Shown here in pieces: positions 20,452-27,165 of a stretch of DNA of 36,008 nucleotides (position 1 is the first letter of the stretch; each line of letters opens with the position of its first letter). The translations under genes were made by a program, and so were the position numbers. The notes under the pieces were generated by a model that searched no databases, was not told where the DNA came from, and was given only the letters and a program-made list of their open reading frames with translations. Origin of the DNA: Candidatus Bathyarchaeota archaeon (GTDB lineage: Archaea; Thermoproteota; Bathyarchaeia; 40CM-2-53-6); contig VBBD01000065.1 in assembly GCA_005882895.1 (NCBI GenBank), positions 1-36,008 on the forward strand, written 5' to 3'.

Positions 20452-21411
20452 CTATATCGGGACTTCTATCATCAGCTTCTCAAGAAGCTCCTTGTACCTA
20501 TTCCGAATAGTAACCTCAGTCACGTTCGCGATCTCCGCGATCTCCCGCTGCGTCTTCCGCTCATTCGTCAACACCGTCGCAATATACGTGGACGCGGCCG
20601 CGATCCCCGCCGGACCCCGACCGCTGGTCAGCTTCATCTGGCGTGCGATCTCCAAGATCCGAATCGCGATCCCTTCCGCCTTCCCGGATATTGTTAGTTT
20701 GTTCGAAAACCGCGCCGCATAATTCCTGTTCGCGGAAGGCGGCACAAACATCCCGAGTTCCCGCAGCATGAACCGATAGCTCCGGCCAATATCCTTCTTG
20801 TTCAGCGTCGACACACTAGCAATCTCATCCAGAGTCCGCGGAATACCGCACTGCCGGCACGACATGTAAATCGCCGCAGCCGTAACATTGTGAATCGATC
20901 TCCCACGGATCAAACGCCTCTTAATCGCTCGACGATAGATAACAGATGCCGTTTCGAGAATATTCTTCGGCAAAGAAAGAGCCGACGACAACTTGCTCAG
21001 CTCCGACAATGCCACAGCCAGGTTCCGCTCCGTCGCGTCCGACACTCGGACACGCCGCTGCCACTTCCGCAGCTTGTAAAGCTCGATCCGTTGATCCGCT
21101 GAGACACCCTTTGTCCCGGTAGGGCGATCACGCCAGTCGATAATCGTCGAGAGGCCTTTGTCATGAATAGTATACGTCATCGGCGCACCGGTACGCGCCC
21201 TCTTCGCGCGCTGCTCGTCGTCAAACGCACGCCACTCAGGCCGCGTATCAGCAATCTTCTCCTGCACAACATACCCACAAGCCATGCAGACAACCTCGGC
21301 CGCGTCGTAGTCCCTCATCAGCCTGGAGCCACCACACTCCGGGCACAACCGTATTCTCCGTGAGCTGCTTTCGGGTGCCCGTTCTAGCGTCTGGCCTACT
21401 TCTTCAACCAC
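20452..21411 (-). CDS. tfb: Transcription initiation factor B (TFB)
   Basis: 319 residues, the archaeal TFIIB homologue that recruits RNA polymerase to TBP on promoters. The N-terminal zinc ribbon uses C23, C26, C42 and C45 (CPECG... CMACG). The B-finger/linker region contains RPEWRAFDDEQRAKRARTGAPMTY. Two cyclin repeats follow (about 115-210 and 215-310), with the recognition helix at NVTEVTIRNRYKELLEKL near the C-terminus. KWQRRVRVSDATERNLAVALSEL and the second repeat closely resemble thaumarchaeal TFBs as I remember them. It starts at GTG, 14 bases after Gar1, forming an operon with it. Confidence 0.97.
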   Translation of the reverse strand: MVEEVGQTLERAPESSSRRIRLCPECGGSRLMRDYDAAEVVCMACGYVVQEKIADTRPEWRAFDDEQRAKRARTGAPMTYTIHDKGLSTIIDWRDRPTGTKGVSADQRIELYKLRKWQRRVRVSDATERNLAVALSELSKLSSALSLPKNILETASVIYRRAIKRRLIRGRSIHNVTAAAIYMSCRQCGIPRTLDEIASVSTLNKKDIGRSYRFMLRELGMFVPPSANRNYAARFSNKLTISGKAEGIAIRILEIARQMKLTSGRGPAGIAAASTYIATVLTNERKTQREIAEIANVTEVTIRNRYKELLEKLMIEVPI

Positions 21412-21425
21412 TTTTTCCCGTTCTC

Positions 21426-21674
21426 CTAATTATCCTCTAAAAGGTATAGAACTCTGCCCGCGAACCCTTCTCCCGCAGCCTCCGGCTTTACGGAGACATA
21501 TGGACTCTTCACAGGACCGAGAATATTGTTGACAGTCCCGATTCTCTTGATCTTGTAGTCGACCACGTTTGCTCGTTCGGGGGGTACCGGAGGCTGTTCA
21601 AGCCGGACAATCAAGTTACCGCTCTTCGACATATGCAGAACTTTGCCAAGCCGTCTTAATCCCGCACCTGGCAC
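21426..21674 (-). CDS. gar1: H/ACA RNP component Gar1
   Basis: About 82 residues with the Gar1 beta-barrel: LRRLGKVLHMSKSGNLIVRLE, VVDYKIKRIGTVNNILGPVKSPYVSVKP and AGRVLYLLED. Gar1 binds Cbf5 in the box H/ACA particle that makes pseudouridine in rRNA. A TTG at 21701 would give nine more codons, but it lies only seven bases from the TATA box (21708-21715) and thus upstream of the likely transcription start. The GTG at 21674 is therefore the better start. Gar1-TFB is a common archaeal gene pair. Confidence 0.88.
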   Translation of the reverse strand: MPGAGLRRLGKVLHMSKSGNLIVRLEQPPVPPERANVVDYKIKRIGTVNNILGPVKSPYVSVKPEAAGEGFAGRVLYLLEDN

Positions 21675-21707
21675 ACTCCAATGAAAGGCGAAAAATGCCA
21701 AATCGCG

Positions 21708-21715: not shown

Positions 21716-21789
21716 CATTGATTGGACGAGAAAGACTTCTAATTCAGCCAAGCCAACACTATCCAAGAACAAGGCTGGCCAGTAGGAAA

Positions 21790-23745
21790 TTGATCCGCGA
21801 AGTCCAACTCTCCAACTTCATGTCCTACAAGAACACAAGCATCCCGCTCCGACCCGGCCTAAACCTGATCATAGGACCAAACGGTGCAGGAAAATCTTCC
21901 ATACTGCTCGCAATCTCCGTCGTCCTAGGTCAAGCTTACACTGAGCGAGCGAAAAAACTCAGCGAGCTCATACGCTGGAACGAACAAGAAGCGCGTATCT
22001 CTCTTCTTCTGGACAACGAAGTACCCAAGGGTGCTAGACCGTTTCCGCAGGCGAGGTCCGACAAAGTCCTCCTCACCAGAGTTCTCAAAAGATCTGGAGA
22101 CTACCACTACTTGCTCAATAACAAGCCAATCAGCAAGATCAACCTAGTCGAGGGACTATCTAGGATAGGACTCAACCCTGACAACATGCTGGTCATAATG
22201 CACCAGCTCATGGTCGGACGATTCGGCTCAGTTAGCCCGATAGACAAGCTACTCCTTCTGGAAGATGCTGTGGGGTTTGCAGCTTATCGTCGAGAAGTAC
22301 TCGAGGCATCCTCTCGATTGCAGAAACTCACAACTGAACGGGAGACAATGTCTTCAGTCCTGGAGGGCACGAAAGAGACCTATTTGCACTGGCAGCGGGA
22401 GTACGAGAAGTATGAGCTGAAGAGGAAGCTTGAAGACCAGTTCAAGGACCTCCAGAGAGAACTCATATGGAGACGTATCATCAGAAGAGAATCCTCACAA
22501 AAACGGGTGAAAGACCGAATCTCCTCCCTGCAAGGCAAGATAGTGGAAACGAGGGAAGAGTTCGAAACATCTCACAAACAACACCAACAGGTCCTAACCG
22601 TCCTCGCAAGGGTCTCCGAAGAGCTAGAAGAACTCAGGGAAGAACACCTGAAGCTTGAGCACGGTCGTGGCCTTCGAGCCGGTTCACTGGAATGGATCTC
22701 AAGAATCACTGATCTCCTTCGTACACAGCAAGAAGTCTTGACTACCCTTCAGCAAAAGGCCCGTGATGTTAGCTTGTCAACGGAGAACGACCAGCTGAGT
22801 CAGGTGTTGTCGGACTTAGTTGAAGAGCATGAGAAAATTTCGATCACTGCCAAGACAGCCGATCAAGACTTCGAGAAAGTACGCACAGGGATTACCGAGC
22901 TAACTTCACAACTCACCAAGAATACCGACGTCCTCATAGAATCGAGAGTCAAGAAAGAGGTCAGCAACTTCAAGCTCGCATTAATGGAACAGGAGGTTCA
23001 AGAGCTCGAGGTCCAGCTTCGGATTGGCCAAGAGGAAATCGAACCCCTTAGAACGCAGGCTTCCCAGCTCGGACCGGTATTCGAGAATCCCAGAGACCTC
23101 CAGCAGATCTCGTTAGATGTCGCTTCTGTTCAAGAACGGTTGCGCCCACTAGCACATCTTTCCGCCGAAGTCGAGAAGATGTACAAGAACTATGGAGACC
23201 TCTACGAGGATCTAAAGAAGAAGGCTGAGGTTGTGGAGCAGAACAGGTCCGAAGTTCTTGGCGAACTGAGAGAACGCTTCGACCGATGGAAGACTGTTAT
23301 GGACAAGTTGCTTGAAGAACTCTCCGCGAGATACAACGCTTTGCTCTCGGAGGTGGAATCAAAGGGACGAATCGTCATCAAAGCCTCCAAAGATATTGAG
23401 AAGGCGGGCCTCGAGCTCTACGCAGGGTTCAAGGGTAACGAACCAGTATCGCTGGACGGTCTAGCCCCCAGTGGGGGTGAACGCACGGTCGCGCTAATCG
23501 CGTTTCTTCTCTCCCTACAACAGTTCATCTCATCTCCTTTCCGGGCAATCGATGAGTTCGACGTTCACATGGACCCGCGAAACCGGGAAACAGTATCCAA
23601 GCTCATCCATGCCGCTGCAAAAGCAAGTGACTCGAGCCAGTACATCGCGATAACCCCTGGACAAGTGACACTTCCAGAGGACAATGTCCACGTTATCGTA
23701 GTCCAGAACGTCGAGGGCAGTTCGATTGTCAAGGAGCTAGCATAA
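21790..23745 (+). CDS. Hinge-less SMC-superfamily ATPase, Smc6/coalescin-like
   Basis: About 651 residues: an ABC-type head split by roughly 380 residues of coiled coil. The N-terminal half-head has IREVQLSNFMSYKNTSIPLRPGLNLIIGPNGAGKSSILLAISVVLG (Walker A GPNGAGKSS). The C-terminal half-head has the signature LAPSGGERTVALIAFLL and Walker B FRAIDEFDVHMDPRNRE, which is strikingly like Smc6. The coil lacks a globular hinge or a Rad50 CxxC hook, and the whole is about half the length of a true SMC. Hinge-less SMC-type proteins such as coalescin (ClsN) organise crenarchaeal chromosomes, so a chromosome role is plausible. Two small genes follow within bases. The TTG at 21790 fits the head start better than the TTG at 21718, which abuts the TATA-like element. 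Confidence 0.85.
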   Translation: MIREVQLSNFMSYKNTSIPLRPGLNLIIGPNGAGKSSILLAISVVLGQAYTERAKKLSELIRWNEQEARISLLLDNEVPKGARPFPQARSDKVLLTRVLKRSGDYHYLLNNKPISKINLVEGLSRIGLNPDNMLVIMHQLMVGRFGSVSPIDKLLLLEDAVGFAAYRREVLEASSRLQKLTTERETMSSVLEGTKETYLHWQREYEKYELKRKLEDQFKDLQRELIWRRIIRRESSQKRVKDRISSLQGKIVETREEFETSHKQHQQVLTVLARVSEELEELREEHLKLEHGRGLRAGSLEWISRITDLLRTQQEVLTTLQQKARDVSLSTENDQLSQVLSDLVEEHEKISITAKTADQDFEKVRTGITELTSQLTKNTDVLIESRVKKEVSNFKLALMEQEVQELEVQLRIGQEEIEPLRTQASQLGPVFENPRDLQQISLDVASVQERLRPLAHLSAEVEKMYKNYGDLYEDLKKKAEVVEQNRSEVLGELRERFDRWKTVMDKLLEELSARYNALLSEVESKGRIVIKASKDIEKAGLELYAGFKGNEPVSLDGLAPSGGERTVALIAFLLSLQQFISSPFRAIDEFDVHMDPRNRETVSKLIHAAAKASDSSQYIAITPGQVTLPEDNVHVIVVQNVEGSSIVKELA

Positions 23746-23747
23746 CC

Positions 23748-24542
23748 ATGACGGAGAAGGTCCGCCGATTGTCCGGAAGACGAGAATTGGAAGAATTAAT
23801 TCAGACGTGTATCTCGATCGAGAACCGCAGGTTCAACCCGTTCCTCTTGGACATCACTGAAGCTCTTCGGATCATACGACGACACTCGAACCAGTTGCGC
23901 ACGATAGATGACCATCTACTCGATATGCGAGCCATCACTAGCGTGGCTAGGGTTGTCGGGTTGCAGAGTGCGAATCTCAGATTCCAGTCCAGCGCCCTCT
24001 TTGTCGATCCTAGCATGGTGCAACAGAAGCTCGATTCACTCTCGAGAGAACAAATGGCAGAGTTTCTCCTTCTCTCATGGCATCCAATAGTAGAGCTGGA
24101 ACAGCTCACACTAGCGTCGACCAAAGAGGCGAAAGAATTTTGGGAAAGGATGCTATCGTTCTTCGAGCGAAGAAAGAGGCTTCACCTTGGACCCTTCGTC
24201 AGCCCTGATGCAGCTGACTTTGAGGAACTGGCGCGAATGCATGTGGTCGAAGAGAAGGCGTACACGAGAAAAATGCAGGACCTTTGGAAGGAGCTCAAGG
24301 AGAGCGCTGAGAAGGACGAGAGAGTGGACTACTGGAACTTTATTAGAGGCTCGGACTTTGCTGCAACTATTGCTCGAGCCCAACTTGTCAGCTTTCTCGT
24401 CACCTATGGTTACGCGAACTTGCAACGAAAGGGGAACAGCATGTTCCTGGTCCCGAAAGCAAGACCTGATCCTCACCCCGAAGGGTCACCGCTCAGCTTT
24501 CCCATCCCCATCACAAAGGAGGTTTTGATACGGGCGAAGTAA
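23748..24542 (+). CDS. SMC-operon partner 1, helical protein with C-terminal winged-helix-like region
   Basis: 264 residues, starting at ATG two bases after the SMC-like stop, so co-transcribed. It is largely alpha-helical: VRRLSGRRELEELIQTCISIENRRFNPFLLDITEALRIIRRH in the N-terminal part, AREMQDLWKELKES-type helices in the middle. The C-terminal DFAATIARAQLVSFLVTYGYANLQRKGNSMFLVPK looks like a winged helix. The layout recalls kleisin-like subunits (ScpA, MukF) that bridge SMC heads, but I see no sequence match and infer the role from position only. Confidence 0.65.
   Translation: MTEKVRRLSGRRELEELIQTCISIENRRFNPFLLDITEALRIIRRHSNQLRTIDDHLLDMRAITSVARVVGLQSANLRFQSSALFVDPSMVQQKLDSLSREQMAEFLLLSWHPIVELEQLTLASTKEAKEFWERMLSFFERRKRLHLGPFVSPDAADFEELARMHVVEEKAYTRKMQDLWKELKESAEKDERVDYWNFIRGSDFAATIARAQLVSFLVTYGYANLQRKGNSMFLVPKARPDPHPEGSPLSFPIPITKEVLIRAK
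24518..24523 (+). promoter_or_regulatory. Shine-Dalgarno pointing to an ACG start
   Basis: GGAGGT is a perfect match to the anti-SD. Six bases later is an in-frame ACG (24530), the most likely initiation codon of the third gene of the SMC operon. Confidence 0.4.
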
Positions 24543-25156
24543 AGGACGAACCGCCCTACTACAATGAAAAGGTCAAGCGAGCAGCACACATGCTCTTCTT
24601 CAAACGGGGAAGAGTACCTGGTGCAAGATCGTGGGAGTTGAAAACAGGACTCGGAAAAGGGTACACGAAAGTTCTGGAACAACTGGATGAGAGTCTGAAG
24701 GACCTGGACCTTGAAGTCAAGAAGGTCGAACCGCAGACTCTGTCTGATTACAAACCAGGACCAGACGACGGGGAAGAAGAATCCCGATATTTCGTCCGCC
24801 TCAAGGGGACACTGGCTCCGAAGGAAGCGAGACTGTGCGGATGGAGAATCGACAATCTCGCAGCCTTAGCGGCCGCCTTGGCGCTTGTAGTATCCAAACA
24901 AGGGAGGAGCGAAAGAAAGGAATTGGAAACGATCATCGGCAACAAAGCAGGACGCTGGAGAGCACTGACCCTAATGGACACATTCCTCCGATCAGGATAT
25001 TTGGAAGAAGACGAGGAAGGACTAGTCAAGCTTGGCTGGCGGACCCGCGCCGAGCTCGATCTCCCAAGCCTGATGATGCTGCTCGCCGAATCAAAGGCAC
25101 CGTCCGCAGAGAGTAGCGAGCCTGTTGAAGATGATCAGGCGTCGATCGAAGGTTGA
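24530..25156 (+). CDS. SMC-operon partner 2, winged-helix (KITE/MukE-like) protein
   Basis: The reading frame is open upstream of the ATG at 24590 and the upstream codons look coding (GEVKDEPPYYNEKVKRAAHMLFFKRGRVPG). No ATG, GTG or TTG occurs in frame there. A perfect GGAGGT six bases before an ACG at 24530 suggests an ACG start, giving about 208 residues and a 13-base overlap with partner 1. The middle contains a segment LAALAAALALVVSKQGRSERKELETIIGNKAGRWRALTLMDTFLRSGYLEEDEEGLVKLG, a likely winged helix of the kind found in MukE or ScpB/Nse1-type subunits. The tail is acidic. The function is inferred from gene context. Confidence 0.65.
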   Translation, partial: TGEVKDEPPYYNEKVKRAAHMLFFKRGRVPGARSWELKTGLGKGYTKVLEQLDESLKDLDLEVKKVEPQTLSDYKPGPDDGEEESRYFVRLKGTLAPKEARLCGWRIDNLAALAAALALVVSKQGRSERKELETIIGNKAGRWRALTLMDTFLRSGYLEEDEEGLVKLGWRTRAELDLPSLMMLLAESKAPSAESSEPVEDDQASIEG

Positions 25157-25542
25157 ATACTCTCTAGGTATCTCTTTCCTTGAGGCACAGCGGCCGCGCA
25201 TAGTTTGTCGAAGGGCAGAATCTTCTCGTCCCACTCTGAGACCTCTTCGGGACGGAGCTTTAGAAATCCCTTATCTTCGCTGACTGTGCCCCACACCAGC
25301 ATGTAGCGGCGGTCAGTGTAGCCCCCCGTTGGGATTCCGGTTATGTGGTTGAAGAGAACTCCGACTCGACCGCGGGTCATTGTTGCGGGGACGCTGGGTT
25401 TCTTCAGGAGAATCTCACCGTTCTCGGAGAGGATAAAGTCTGTTGCAACACTGAACGGGAAACCGTCTGTGTCGATCCAGGTGACTATGCCGTATCGGAA
25501 CAGTGATAGCCTGTCTGGGTCAATGAGACCTAATGTGGTCAA
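25135..25542 (-). CDS. FMN-binding split-barrel-like protein, short
   Basis: 135 residues starting at a TTG that overlaps the stop of the upstream gene (TTGA at 25542-25539). A GGAGG ten bases upstream supports it; longer versions in this frame run inside the neighbour and look like noise. The core RYGIVTWIDTDGFPFSVATDFILSENGEILLKKP with GRVGVLFNHIT resembles a pyridoxamine-phosphate-oxidase-like split barrel. The C-terminal part includes LRPEEVSEWDEKILPFDKLC. Its coupling to a second split-barrel gene suggests a heteromer. Confidence 0.6.
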   Translation of the reverse strand: MTTLGLIDPDRLSLFRYGIVTWIDTDGFPFSVATDFILSENGEILLKKPSVPATMTRGRVGVLFNHITGIPTGGYTDRRYMLVWGTVSEDKGFLKLRPEEVSEWDEKILPFDKLCAAAVPQGKRYLESIQPSIDA

Positions 25543-26009
25543 AGGTTGATTGCCTCCGCGGGTTTGGAGGTGTCTCCGTTCTTCCATGCAAGTATCTTCT
25601 TTGGTTCTATTTCGACCACGATTCTTTTCCAGAACCAGGCGAATTGGTCCCGGGCCGCAAGGAATCCGTCGATGTAAGGCTCCTTCTTGCGCCACATAGG
25701 GAGGTATCGTTCCCATCCATGGTCAAGGTCGGAATCATCGCATTTTGCAATGCCTTGGACGAGGACGACATGCTTCTCAACTCCACTGCCTTCCGGGTTG
25801 GAGAAGAGTAGCGATACTTTCGGGTTCTTCTTCATATGTTCAATCTTGCGCGAGAACAATATGCTGGATGTCACAGCGAACCTAGGAGGATTATTGTCAT
25901 AGAAGAATAGTAGCGGAAACGTCACAGGCTTCCCGTTATCTATCGATGTGAATTCGCAGATCAAGTATCGATCGAAAACGGATTGAACCCAGGTCGGAGC
26001 TTTCATCAA
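25539..26009 (-). CDS. Pyridoxamine 5'-phosphate oxidase-like split-barrel protein
   Basis: 156 residues. ICEFTSIDNGKPVTFPLLFFYDNNPPRFAVTSSILFSRKIEHMKKNPKVSLLFSNPEG and VVLVQGIAKCDDSDL match the FMN/F420 split-barrel pattern. The C-terminal WFWKRIVVEIEPKKILAWKNGD is the usual last strand. The substrate is unknown. Its TGA overlaps the TTG of the next minus-strand gene, another split barrel. Confidence 0.75.
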   Translation of the reverse strand: MMKAPTWVQSVFDRYLICEFTSIDNGKPVTFPLLFFYDNNPPRFAVTSSILFSRKIEHMKKNPKVSLLFSNPEGSGVEKHVVLVQGIAKCDDSDLDHGWERYLPMWRKKEPYIDGFLAARDQFAWFWKRIVVEIEPKKILAWKNGDTSKPAEAINL

Positions 26010-26073
26010 CCTATTCGACCTTGCGGGTGCGCGTGTGGCAACTCCTTGGCTATAAGACCGCCGATTGAACTGT

Positions 26074-27165
26074 TCATGCTTGCTTCGGGATCTGTCTAAG
26101 AAACTCCTTAGGATATTGTTTCGAGTTCAGCAGTGTCAGGAACTCTCCTTTCTTGATAGATGCTCTCGCGGATTCCAGCTCAGTTCTCTGAGCCAGATGA
26201 TCGTGGACCTTCGCCTTTGCTAGCACGTCCAAGACTTTGCCTTCGTAGAAGGGTTCCAGGTCCTTCCCTTGGCAAACAGCGCAGTTGCAGCTTGTCGAGT
26301 TTCCTCTGATCTCTTCATAGTCTCTCTTCTTCAGCGCTCCCCAGCCTTTTCGGTCGAAAACATTGATCACCTCTTTCGTAAGCGGTGTTGGTGGCGGTGG
26401 GACGATCCATCTGGAGAAGCTGTCTATGCTGAACATTGGAAGGATCATTCCTTGGCTGCAGGGGATCGGGCTTCTTCCGAGCCGTACCTTCGGTGGAACT
26501 TGGAACGCATGGAGCCAGACCCCAGGCTTCCTCCTCTTGAATTCCTCCATTACTCGGAGAGCGTGGTAGTGGAACGCGCCTCGGAGATCAATCCCCACCT
26601 GAGCTGACTCATGCTTCTCAACCATCTTGACTACTTTTCCGAAGACTTCCTTGTTGTCGGTGGCTTGCATGATCGGCATCAACGGTTTCTCGACGCCGCG
26701 CTCTTCCATCCAGCGTTCCGCGAAGCGGAGCTGACCATCAAAATCCTCCGGAGACATGTCAACCGTGTGCTGGACCGTGATGATGTCGAGTCCCGCAAGA
26801 TATTGTAGGTCCAGGATCGTTTTCAGGTCTTGGGTCTCTTTCACCATGGCTCCGCCCTTAAAGGCTAGGTAGAGGAGACGAACAGCGTCAGGGCTCGTTT
26901 CTCTAGATAGGAATCTCGCGGTAGACTTCAGAGCCTCTTCCTGAGTGAGAATTCTCTTGATCGTGTCGGGCGGGGCGAGCCGGGCGAGAACTGCTACTTC
27001 TCCAGGTAGTGGCTCTTTTACACCTGCTGGCTTGAGCGCGTTTCTCTCAGGACTGATAGGGAATCTGTTGGGAAGGGGAATCCGACGTTGTCCGATCCGG
27101 AGCTCGGACTGACTCGCGCTGGTCTCGGAGTCAACTTTGATCTGGGCTAGCTGGATTGTGGACAT
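26074..27165 (-). CDS. Divergent TGT-like protein (tRNA-guanine transglycosylase fold)
   Basis: 363 residues. The C-terminal part has CNCAVC (C-x-C-x2-C) followed about 26 residues later by H in VHDHLAQRTEL, which is the TGT zinc site. The middle contains TVQHTVDMSPEDFDGQLRFAERWM and QVGIDLRGAFHYHALRVMEEFKRRKPGVWLHAFQVPP, compatible with the TIM barrel. Usual TGT landmarks such as the GGLAVGE motif and a clear catalytic DFxxPxD are not visible. It is shorter than archaeosine TGT and lacks a PUA domain. So it is probably a paralogue with another substrate or no transglycosylase activity. Confidence 0.65.
   Translation of the reverse strand: MSTIQLAQIKVDSETSASQSELRIGQRRIPLPNRFPISPERNALKPAGVKEPLPGEVAVLARLAPPDTIKRILTQEEALKSTARFLSRETSPDAVRLLYLAFKGGAMVKETQDLKTILDLQYLAGLDIITVQHTVDMSPEDFDGQLRFAERWMEERGVEKPLMPIMQATDNKEVFGKVVKMVEKHESAQVGIDLRGAFHYHALRVMEEFKRRKPGVWLHAFQVPPKVRLGRSPIPCSQGMILPMFSIDSFSRWIVPPPPTPLTKEVINVFDRKGWGALKKRDYEEIRGNSTSCNCAVCQGKDLEPFYEGKVLDVLAKAKVHDHLAQRTELESARASIKKGEFLTLLNSKQYPKEFLRQIPKQA

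Follow-up and report, generated by a model that had tools for sequence, protein, structure and literature searches.

In MukBEF and in the Wadjet system (JetABCD), the SMC, kleisin and KITE genes lie in one operon, and the hinge of SMC proteins is regarded in current models as a dimeriser, as a DNA gate or in terms of a second compartment. The partner subunits of Smc5/6, a machine that protects the chromosomes of animals, plants and yeasts, have, to our knowledge, been described solely from eukaryotes. For archaea, the accessible part of one paper argues that the canonical Smc-ScpA works without KITE subunits (PMC7055376), and that of another mentions "SMC5/6-related" SMC proteins from a 2021 study (PMC9389158). 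Among the matches listed in a literature search, the titles and the openings of the abstracts described neither archaeal homologues of Nse4 or Nse1/Nse3 nor an SMC that lacks a hinge and is accompanied by a kleisin and a KITE protein; bioRxiv and the bulk of the subscription literature lay outside the coverage, and this is no proof of novelty. Here, we analyzed three adjacent genes, termed A, B and C, in a stretch of 36,008 nucleotides from Candidatus Bathyarchaeota archaeon (GenBank assembly GCA_005882895.1, contig VBBD01000065.1, positions 1–36,008, forward strand), which is called the window throughout. From comparisons of sequences and profiles, we consider, with a probability of roughly 0.78, that they encode an archaeal SMC complex of the Smc5/6 type, with A as its ATPase, B as its kleisin and C as its KITE subunit.

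A putative Smc5/6-type operon

The sequence-only reading of the window had proposed a three-gene operon, and three open reading frames were found exactly where it had placed them, in a row on the plus strand with gaps of 2 and 47 bp:

21790–23745, plus strand: gene A, predicted hinge-less Smc5/6-type SMC ATPase of 651 aa with a TTG start (Pfam SMC_N, 4.2e-36; PDB yeast SMC5, 4e-35)
23748–24542, plus strand: gene B, predicted Nse4-like kleisin of 264 aa, beginning 2 bp past A (PDB Nse4/EID3, 4.6e-6 with the family profile)
24590–25156, plus strand: gene C, predicted tandem winged-helix, KITE-like protein of 188 aa, 47 bp past B, resembling Nse3/MAGE and Nse1

An alternative in-frame TTG at 21718 would lengthen A by 24 residues; the homologues align from 21790. 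All three genes are under purifying selection, with ratios of nonsynonymous to synonymous substitution rates (dN/dS) against two genus-mates of 0.04–0.05 for A, 0.07–0.08 for B and 0.02–0.04 for C, while a third comparison for each gene had saturated dS and gave no ratio.

The locus resembles the eukaryotic Smc5/6-Nse1-Nse3-Nse4 core in that its heads are closest to Smc5, its putative kleisin is of the Nse4 type and its putative KITE protein weakly resembles Nse1/Nse3. It differs from that core in gene number, with a single gene each for SMC and KITE where the core has two, in the shorter arms of A, in which no hinge was found, and in being present as one A locus per genome beside a canonical SMC, with no Smc5/Smc6 pair. 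Among the Pfam matches of the window's A, B and C there was neither a RING nor a SUMO-ligase domain, and the genome was not searched for Nse2. A shares with the archaeal "SMC5/6-related" proteins a position on the Smc5/6 side of SMC phylogeny, and the keeping together of SMC, kleisin and KITE-like genes is shared with MukBEF and Wadjet.

The SMC ATPase of gene A

The nucleotide-binding motifs of A (Walker A GPNGAGKSS, signature SGGER, and Walker B with D-loop, RAIDEFDVHMDP) are invariant at almost every position among 18 aligned sequences, including that of the window:

21874–21900, plus strand: Walker A of A, GPNGAGKSS, residues 29–37, invariant in alignment A1 save for residue 33 (A or S)
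23470–23484, plus strand: ABC signature of A, SGGER, residues 561–565, invariant in A1
23539–23577, plus strand: Walker B and D-loop of A, FRAIDEFDVHMDP, residues 584–596, from A1

The Walker B stretch, RAIDEFDVHMDPRN, has the Smc6 pattern DEFDV.MD (human Smc6 chain, LDEFDVYMDMVN) and ends in PRN, resembling Smc5 (MDSRN in yeast, MDPIN in human). When the whole protein was compared with the PDB (phmmer), yeast Smc5 came first (4e-35), with Smc chains behind it at 2e-28 and weaker, and yeast Smc5 was also the first match of the N-terminal half (8e-17) and of the C-terminal half (1e-20) taken separately.

A hinge family was absent both from the 13 families listed for A and from the matches listed (25 of 79 families) for 18 A sequences. 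Walker A and the signature are separated by 439–562 residues in 29 of the 30 A proteins, those in which both motifs were found, compared with 1,046 residues in L135, a canonical SMC from a member of the same order; such a span leaves little room for a hinge. CxxC occurs in none of the 30 A proteins, which excludes a zinc hook. Judged from the PDB matches, the arms amount to about 320 residues in total between the two halves of the head. The features that the sequence-only reading had assigned to A, namely a Smc6-like Walker B, about 650 residues and no hinge, are thus borne out.

The candidate kleisin and KITE subunits

The identity of B was approached with profiles of its family. A profile of 21 relatives matched four sequences in the PDB at E up to 10, all of them Nse4 or its human relative EID3, with a best E-value of 4.6e-6. 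With a profile of 43 more diverse members, Nse4 and EID3 were again at the top (2.4e-5 to 7.5e-5) of 11 matches, followed by unrelated chains from 0.19 and by one ScpA chain at 0.79. Among the same 43 proteins, the Pfam family Nse4_C was matched in 33 at E up to 10 (best 4.9e-6), and the next family in three. The likeness to Nse4 is confined to the C-terminal winged helix, and the N-terminal part gave no significant match. Single-sequence scans of B and C with Pfam, NCBIfam and PADLOC gave nothing above a cut-off.

24165–24491, plus strand: C-terminal winged-helix region of B, residues 140–248, the portion that aligns with Nse4, with a weak ScpA match
24842–25084, plus strand: second winged helix of C, about residues 85–165 (GWRID...GYL...GWRTRAE), from alignments A3 and A6

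Alignments A3 and A6 suggest two winged-helix units in C. At E up to 10, Pfam scans of 40 members of the family matched MAGE in six (best 3.6e-4), SMC_Nse1 in five (best 4.8e-4) and TY-Chap3 in four. Profile A6, built from 30 members including the Asgard relatives, gave nine PDB matches at E up to 10, with a BAG chaperone first (0.047), MAGE at 0.049 and two Nse1 chains at 0.26 and 0.36. In a direct comparison with hhalign, columns 10–179 of A6 aligned to columns 2–181 of four Nse3/MAGE chains with a P-value of 1.1e-4 and a probability of 56%, while the P-value was 0.52 for the reversed MAGE control and 0.046, 0.077 and 0.22 for the B, A and D families, respectively. No single test suffices; from the sum of these profile tests and from its position behind a kleisin, we read C as a putative KITE protein.

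Of the two partners, the sequence-only reading had called B helical and C a winged-helix protein. This held in part, since a winged-helix region also lies at the C-terminus of B, and C appears to hold two winged helices in tandem instead of one. Neither partner fell into an unrelated family, B matching Nse4 and C weakly matching Nse3/MAGE and Nse1, and together with the Smc5 match of A this supports the suggestion of a minimal complex of the Smc5/6 kind, in which a kleisin and a KITE protein accompany the SMC. The MukBEF-like complex offered beside it found no such backing, as no MukF, MukE or other Muk model, nor any Jet model, was among the matches listed for B and C (one list for B comprising 25 of 32 families), and a MukBEF identity was dropped for lack of a match.

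Conservation of the operon and the canonical SMC

In a set of 41 genomes, consisting of that of the window and 40 relatives, A-family proteins were taken as those with E up to 9e-35, the weaker matches being canonical SMC. A and B were found in the same 28 genomes and C in 26, and in the two that lacked C (G013 and G023), B runs off the contig. Each of the 28 genomes has a single A locus, whose identity drops with the distance of kinship. In a sample of 300 genomes from the phylum, C was found in 125; at the best 30 of these loci, B adjoins C in all and A is present in 29; the remaining locus (L119) is truncated at its end.

A scan of named genomes gave at least 29 loci, 17 of which have an A-family protein; the remaining 12 of the 29 listed are one Lokiarchaeota SMC (L080) and 11 bacterial loci (L081–L091). 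The order A-B-C was seen at all 14 named loci with room for three genes (L063–L069, L071 and L074–L079), so the gene order is not peculiar to the window. The sequence runs out within A in L070, L072 and L073, just the final part of A is present in L075, and in L079, A and B are each broken over two frames. The named loci are labeled Bathyarchaeota, Methanomethylicota, Thermofilales, Calditenuaceae, Methanodesulfokora, Hadesarchaea, Thaumarchaeota and an unnamed archaeon. The C proteins of L098, L099 and L103, loci assigned to the same class as the window, are 80–87% identical to those of the Bathyarchaeota loci L063 and L078, so that the genome of the window probably belongs to class Bathyarchaeia.

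A canonical SMC of about 1180 aa is also present in related genomes. In the genome of the window, this protein seems to be broken between contigs C27 and C34 (L001 and L002, with open frames of 693 and 553 aa), perhaps by an assembly break. ScpA was matched in 10 of the 41 genomes, in seven of them above the cut-off, and not in the window's own. The likeness of the locus to SMC-ScpAB and to the archaeal Smc-ScpA lies in the pairing of an ATPase with a kleisin, and in the weak match of B to the ScpA chain mentioned above. However, in several of the same genomes, the two systems are separate: ScpA adjoins the canonical SMC in G004, G024, G026, G038 and G039, all of which carry A too, and B is therefore not simply the missing ScpA. 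The KITE-like C is a further difference from the archaeal Smc-ScpA, given the argument, in the accessible part of PMC7055376, that the latter lacks a KITE subunit.

Asgard relatives and phylogeny of the heads

Among 227 genomes of the phylum to which Lokiarchaeota CR_4 (G334) belongs, three were matched by the B profile. In the Asgard genomes G415–G418, the genes follow one another as A-B-C and A is about 850 aa long (truncated at the contig end in G415), and the one SMC of this group that was scanned (L133) matched the SMC hinge at 2.9e-13. At E-values no higher than 0.001, the Asgard-inclusive C profile matched 81 of 222 genomes, the match in G368 being interrupted by many stop codons, and in at least 31 of these 81, C lies within 8 kb downstream of an SMC match on the same strand. 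Fourteen Asgard loci were read, 12 chosen for the proximity of SMC and C, plus L080 and L166; the C of L080 was matched in the small locus search only, its genome (G334) being a miss in the 222-genome search. All 14 have a full-length SMC (1123–1166 aa), then a protein of 215–246 aa, then C, and the middle protein matched the B profile, which includes one Asgard member, with E below 0.02 in nine. The hinge family was matched by each of the three full-length SMCs scanned from these loci (1.9e-5, 2.4e-5 and 0.0033), so that a hinge match was found in four of the six Asgard SMCs scanned.

Two further Asgard genomes (L132 and L134) have an SMC and an Nse4-like neighbor in a different layout, with Nse4_C matched at 0.0014 in L132 and not in L134. 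At both loci (L132, 9827–12327; L134, 807–1781), the genes encode the SMC, a protein of 323–325 aa and the Nse4-like protein, and L132 also has a protein of 191 aa. One weak match of MukBEF type, to MksE (0.006), came from the 323–325 aa neighbor in L134. The layout might be a two-KITE version of the complex. An unusually long SMC-like frame of about 1480–1500 aa also occurs in many Asgard genomes, of which L164 (5231–9694) and L165 (6746–11185) group with canonical SMC.

The heads were compared in three unrooted trees (LG+F+R5) of 31, 36 and 38 proteins over 366, 366 and 364 columns, respectively. ASRP and Rad50 are absent from them (L141, L143, L144, L145 and L146 being left out), L139 was excluded since its longest frame lacks Walker A, and human SMC5 was entered as its C-terminal half. 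For the last tree, eight of the 12 new Asgard loci were offered, L187, L189, L190 and L191 were lost at the motif search, and A_L031 and Asg_L161 were dropped. The A family was monophyletic in all three, with ultrafast bootstrap (UFB) values of 99, 100 and 100. The node uniting A, Smc5, Smc6 and Asgard L132/L134 had UFB 75, 85 and 88, and the same node with the hinge-bearing Asgard L133 group had 85, 96 and 96, with the canonical side taken as the root. In the two larger trees, canonical SMC together with the Asgard L164/L165 proteins (1480 aa) was split from all others with UFB 100. In the approximately unbiased (AU) test, forcing A together with canonical SMC, a constraint drawn without L164/L165, was rejected (p 8e-7), and forcing A with the L133 group was not (p 0.23). 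With hinges on neighboring branches, namely in the hinge-bearing Asgard operons, and with the root assumed on the canonical side, the hinge was probably lost in the A family.

Proposed mechanism and alternative explanations

The most likely role of the complex would be chromosome maintenance, or repair at replication problems, alongside a separate canonical SMC-ScpA. By analogy with described SMC complexes, it may act as an ATP-driven DNA clamp or extruder. Two A subunits would engage head to head upon ATP binding, and one B would bridge them, with its N-terminal helical part on the neck of one and its C-terminal winged helix on the head of the other. A dimer of C would sit on the middle of B and touch DNA, giving a putative A2-B-C2 assembly. 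DNA would be clamped atop the engaged heads, and hydrolysis would release it or move it on. In other SMC complexes, the hinge closes off a second compartment for DNA. With short arms and no recognizable hinge, the complex of A, B and C would be held by the heads, kleisin and KITE, or by an arm-tip contact not recognized here, and opening and closing would likewise fall to these parts.

On the wider history we are more guarded. We lean towards the idea that a Smc5/6-type machine, with an SMC, an Nse4 kleisin and an Nse1/3 KITE, already existed in archaea before eukaryotes, and that the Asgard lineages kept the hinge while Bathyarchaeia and related lineages dropped it, leaving a motor that would clamp or extrude DNA without a closed hinge ring. 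If the assignment is true, the Smc5/6 partner subunits have archaeal homologues in a conserved operon, and archaea offer a setting in which to test how Smc5/6 arose. The form without a hinge would then amount to a natural experiment that asks if a hinge is required for SMC motors at all. Archaea would also gain a KITE-bearing SMC complex, next to a canonical Smc-ScpA for which the accessible part of PMC7055376 argues that KITE subunits are missing.

Several observations weigh against assigning the locus to a Smc5/6-type complex. A and B were not found in 13 of the 41 related genomes, some of which are incomplete, and C was not found in 175 of the 300 phylum genomes; the system is therefore not universal. 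The B of the window, taken alone, has no Nse4_C match. The 21 closer relatives of C match the unrelated TY-Chap3 in nine cases, Nse1 in eight and MAGE in one, all with E above 0.005. All PDB matches of A6 have E above 0.04, and profiles A3 and A4 retrieved no KITE protein from the PDB; the hhalign P-value to MAGE was 0.008 with the 40-member A4 and 0.56, meaning no match, with the close-relative A3. Among the full-length Asgard loci, the middle protein gave a B-profile E above 0.1 in five of the 14, Nse4_C was matched in none of the five kleisin-position proteins scanned, and the hinge match of 0.0033 (L181) lies under the Pfam cut-off; scans of the SMCs of L132 and L134 gave no hinge match. 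In the trees, Smc5 groups with the long-branched L132/L134 and not with Smc6, and joining Smc5 with Smc6 was not rejected (p 0.26).

A role in defense against plasmids or viruses, by sensing DNA shape as Wadjet does or by silencing extrachromosomal DNA as human Smc5/6 does, appears unlikely, although a few observations point that way: the best PADLOC match of A is mad3, an SMC-like ATPase (8.6e-33), presence across genomes is patchy, and human Smc5/6 and Wadjet both target extrachromosomal DNA, according to the accessible part of PMC10586767. However, nothing positive goes past this generic ATPase match, and B and C gave no PADLOC match at E up to 1. The operon also differs from Wadjet in its surroundings, since the flanking genes in the window lie on the other strand and none of the seven scanned matches a nuclease family, nor did any of 10 neighbors scanned at other loci, a minority of the neighbors there. 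The upstream neighbors in the window are TFB and Gar1 genes, and the single A locus in each of 28 genomes, with identity falling with kinship, also speaks against defense.

Two further explanations would take the partners away from A. That B and C serve the canonical SMC as alternative partners, with A a regulator or loader rather than a motor, is very improbable. A canonical SMC does occur in related genomes and, over two contigs, in the window's own, where ScpA is not among the matches (10 of 41 genomes), and the archaeal Smc-ScpA is argued to lack KITE (PMC7055376, accessible part); yet B and C come after A in the examined loci, ScpA adjoins the canonical SMC in the five genomes where both were seen, and A retains its ATPase motifs. 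Slightly less probable still is that A is a relative of ASRP (coalescin-like) or Rad50 and that B and C are unrelated neighbors. A is, like coalescin, a short archaeal SMC relative without an SMC hinge, of about 650 aa with a short coiled coil, but its weak NCBIfam scores of 41.5 bits for ASRP/coalescin and 65.5 bits for Rad50 are below the cut-offs of 300 and 700 bits. The accessible part of PMC9389158 reports a zinc hook in the vast majority of ASRPs and no consensus among their gene neighbors, whereas A is without CxxC and is followed by its two dedicated partner genes in the examined loci with room. We thus prefer the assignment of A, B and C to one Smc5/6-type complex.

Neighboring genes

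Upstream of the operon and divergent from it are a Gar1-like gene (21426–21701, minus strand, 1.7e-6) and a TFB gene (20452–21411, minus strand). On its other side, at 25135–27165 of the window, the minus strand carries a gene for a PNPOx-like protein (8e-5), one whose product weakly resembles tRNA-guanine transglycosylase (0.012) and a third that gave no match.

The hinge-bearing Asgard operons lie beside ubiquitin-type genes (L133, 1439–6222; L161, 11250–15999; L162, 16219–17376). Those of L133 encode an E1 (ThiF, 4e-60), an E2 (2e-33), an E2-like protein that carries a RING domain, and a JAB protease; the look-alikes of L161 and L162 were judged by eye. Directly 5' of the SMC gene at three Asgard loci is a related AAA ATPase gene (L133, 7367–8806; L132, 15646–16638; L134, 5140–6150), confirmed by Pfam in L133 and L132.

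An Lhr-type helicase gene lies convergent beyond C in six of the 14 named loci (L065, L067, L069, L071, L077 and L079; that of L067 was scanned by Pfam), a neighbor that is compatible with repair and proves nothing. A conserved protein of about 228 aa (alignment A7), with no significant Pfam match, was found in three members of the 41-genome set, the genome of the window not being one of them. It is encoded near A, often head to head, at eight loci from different lineages: L030, L033, L065, L067, L071, L074, L078 (4149–4838, minus strand) and L079.

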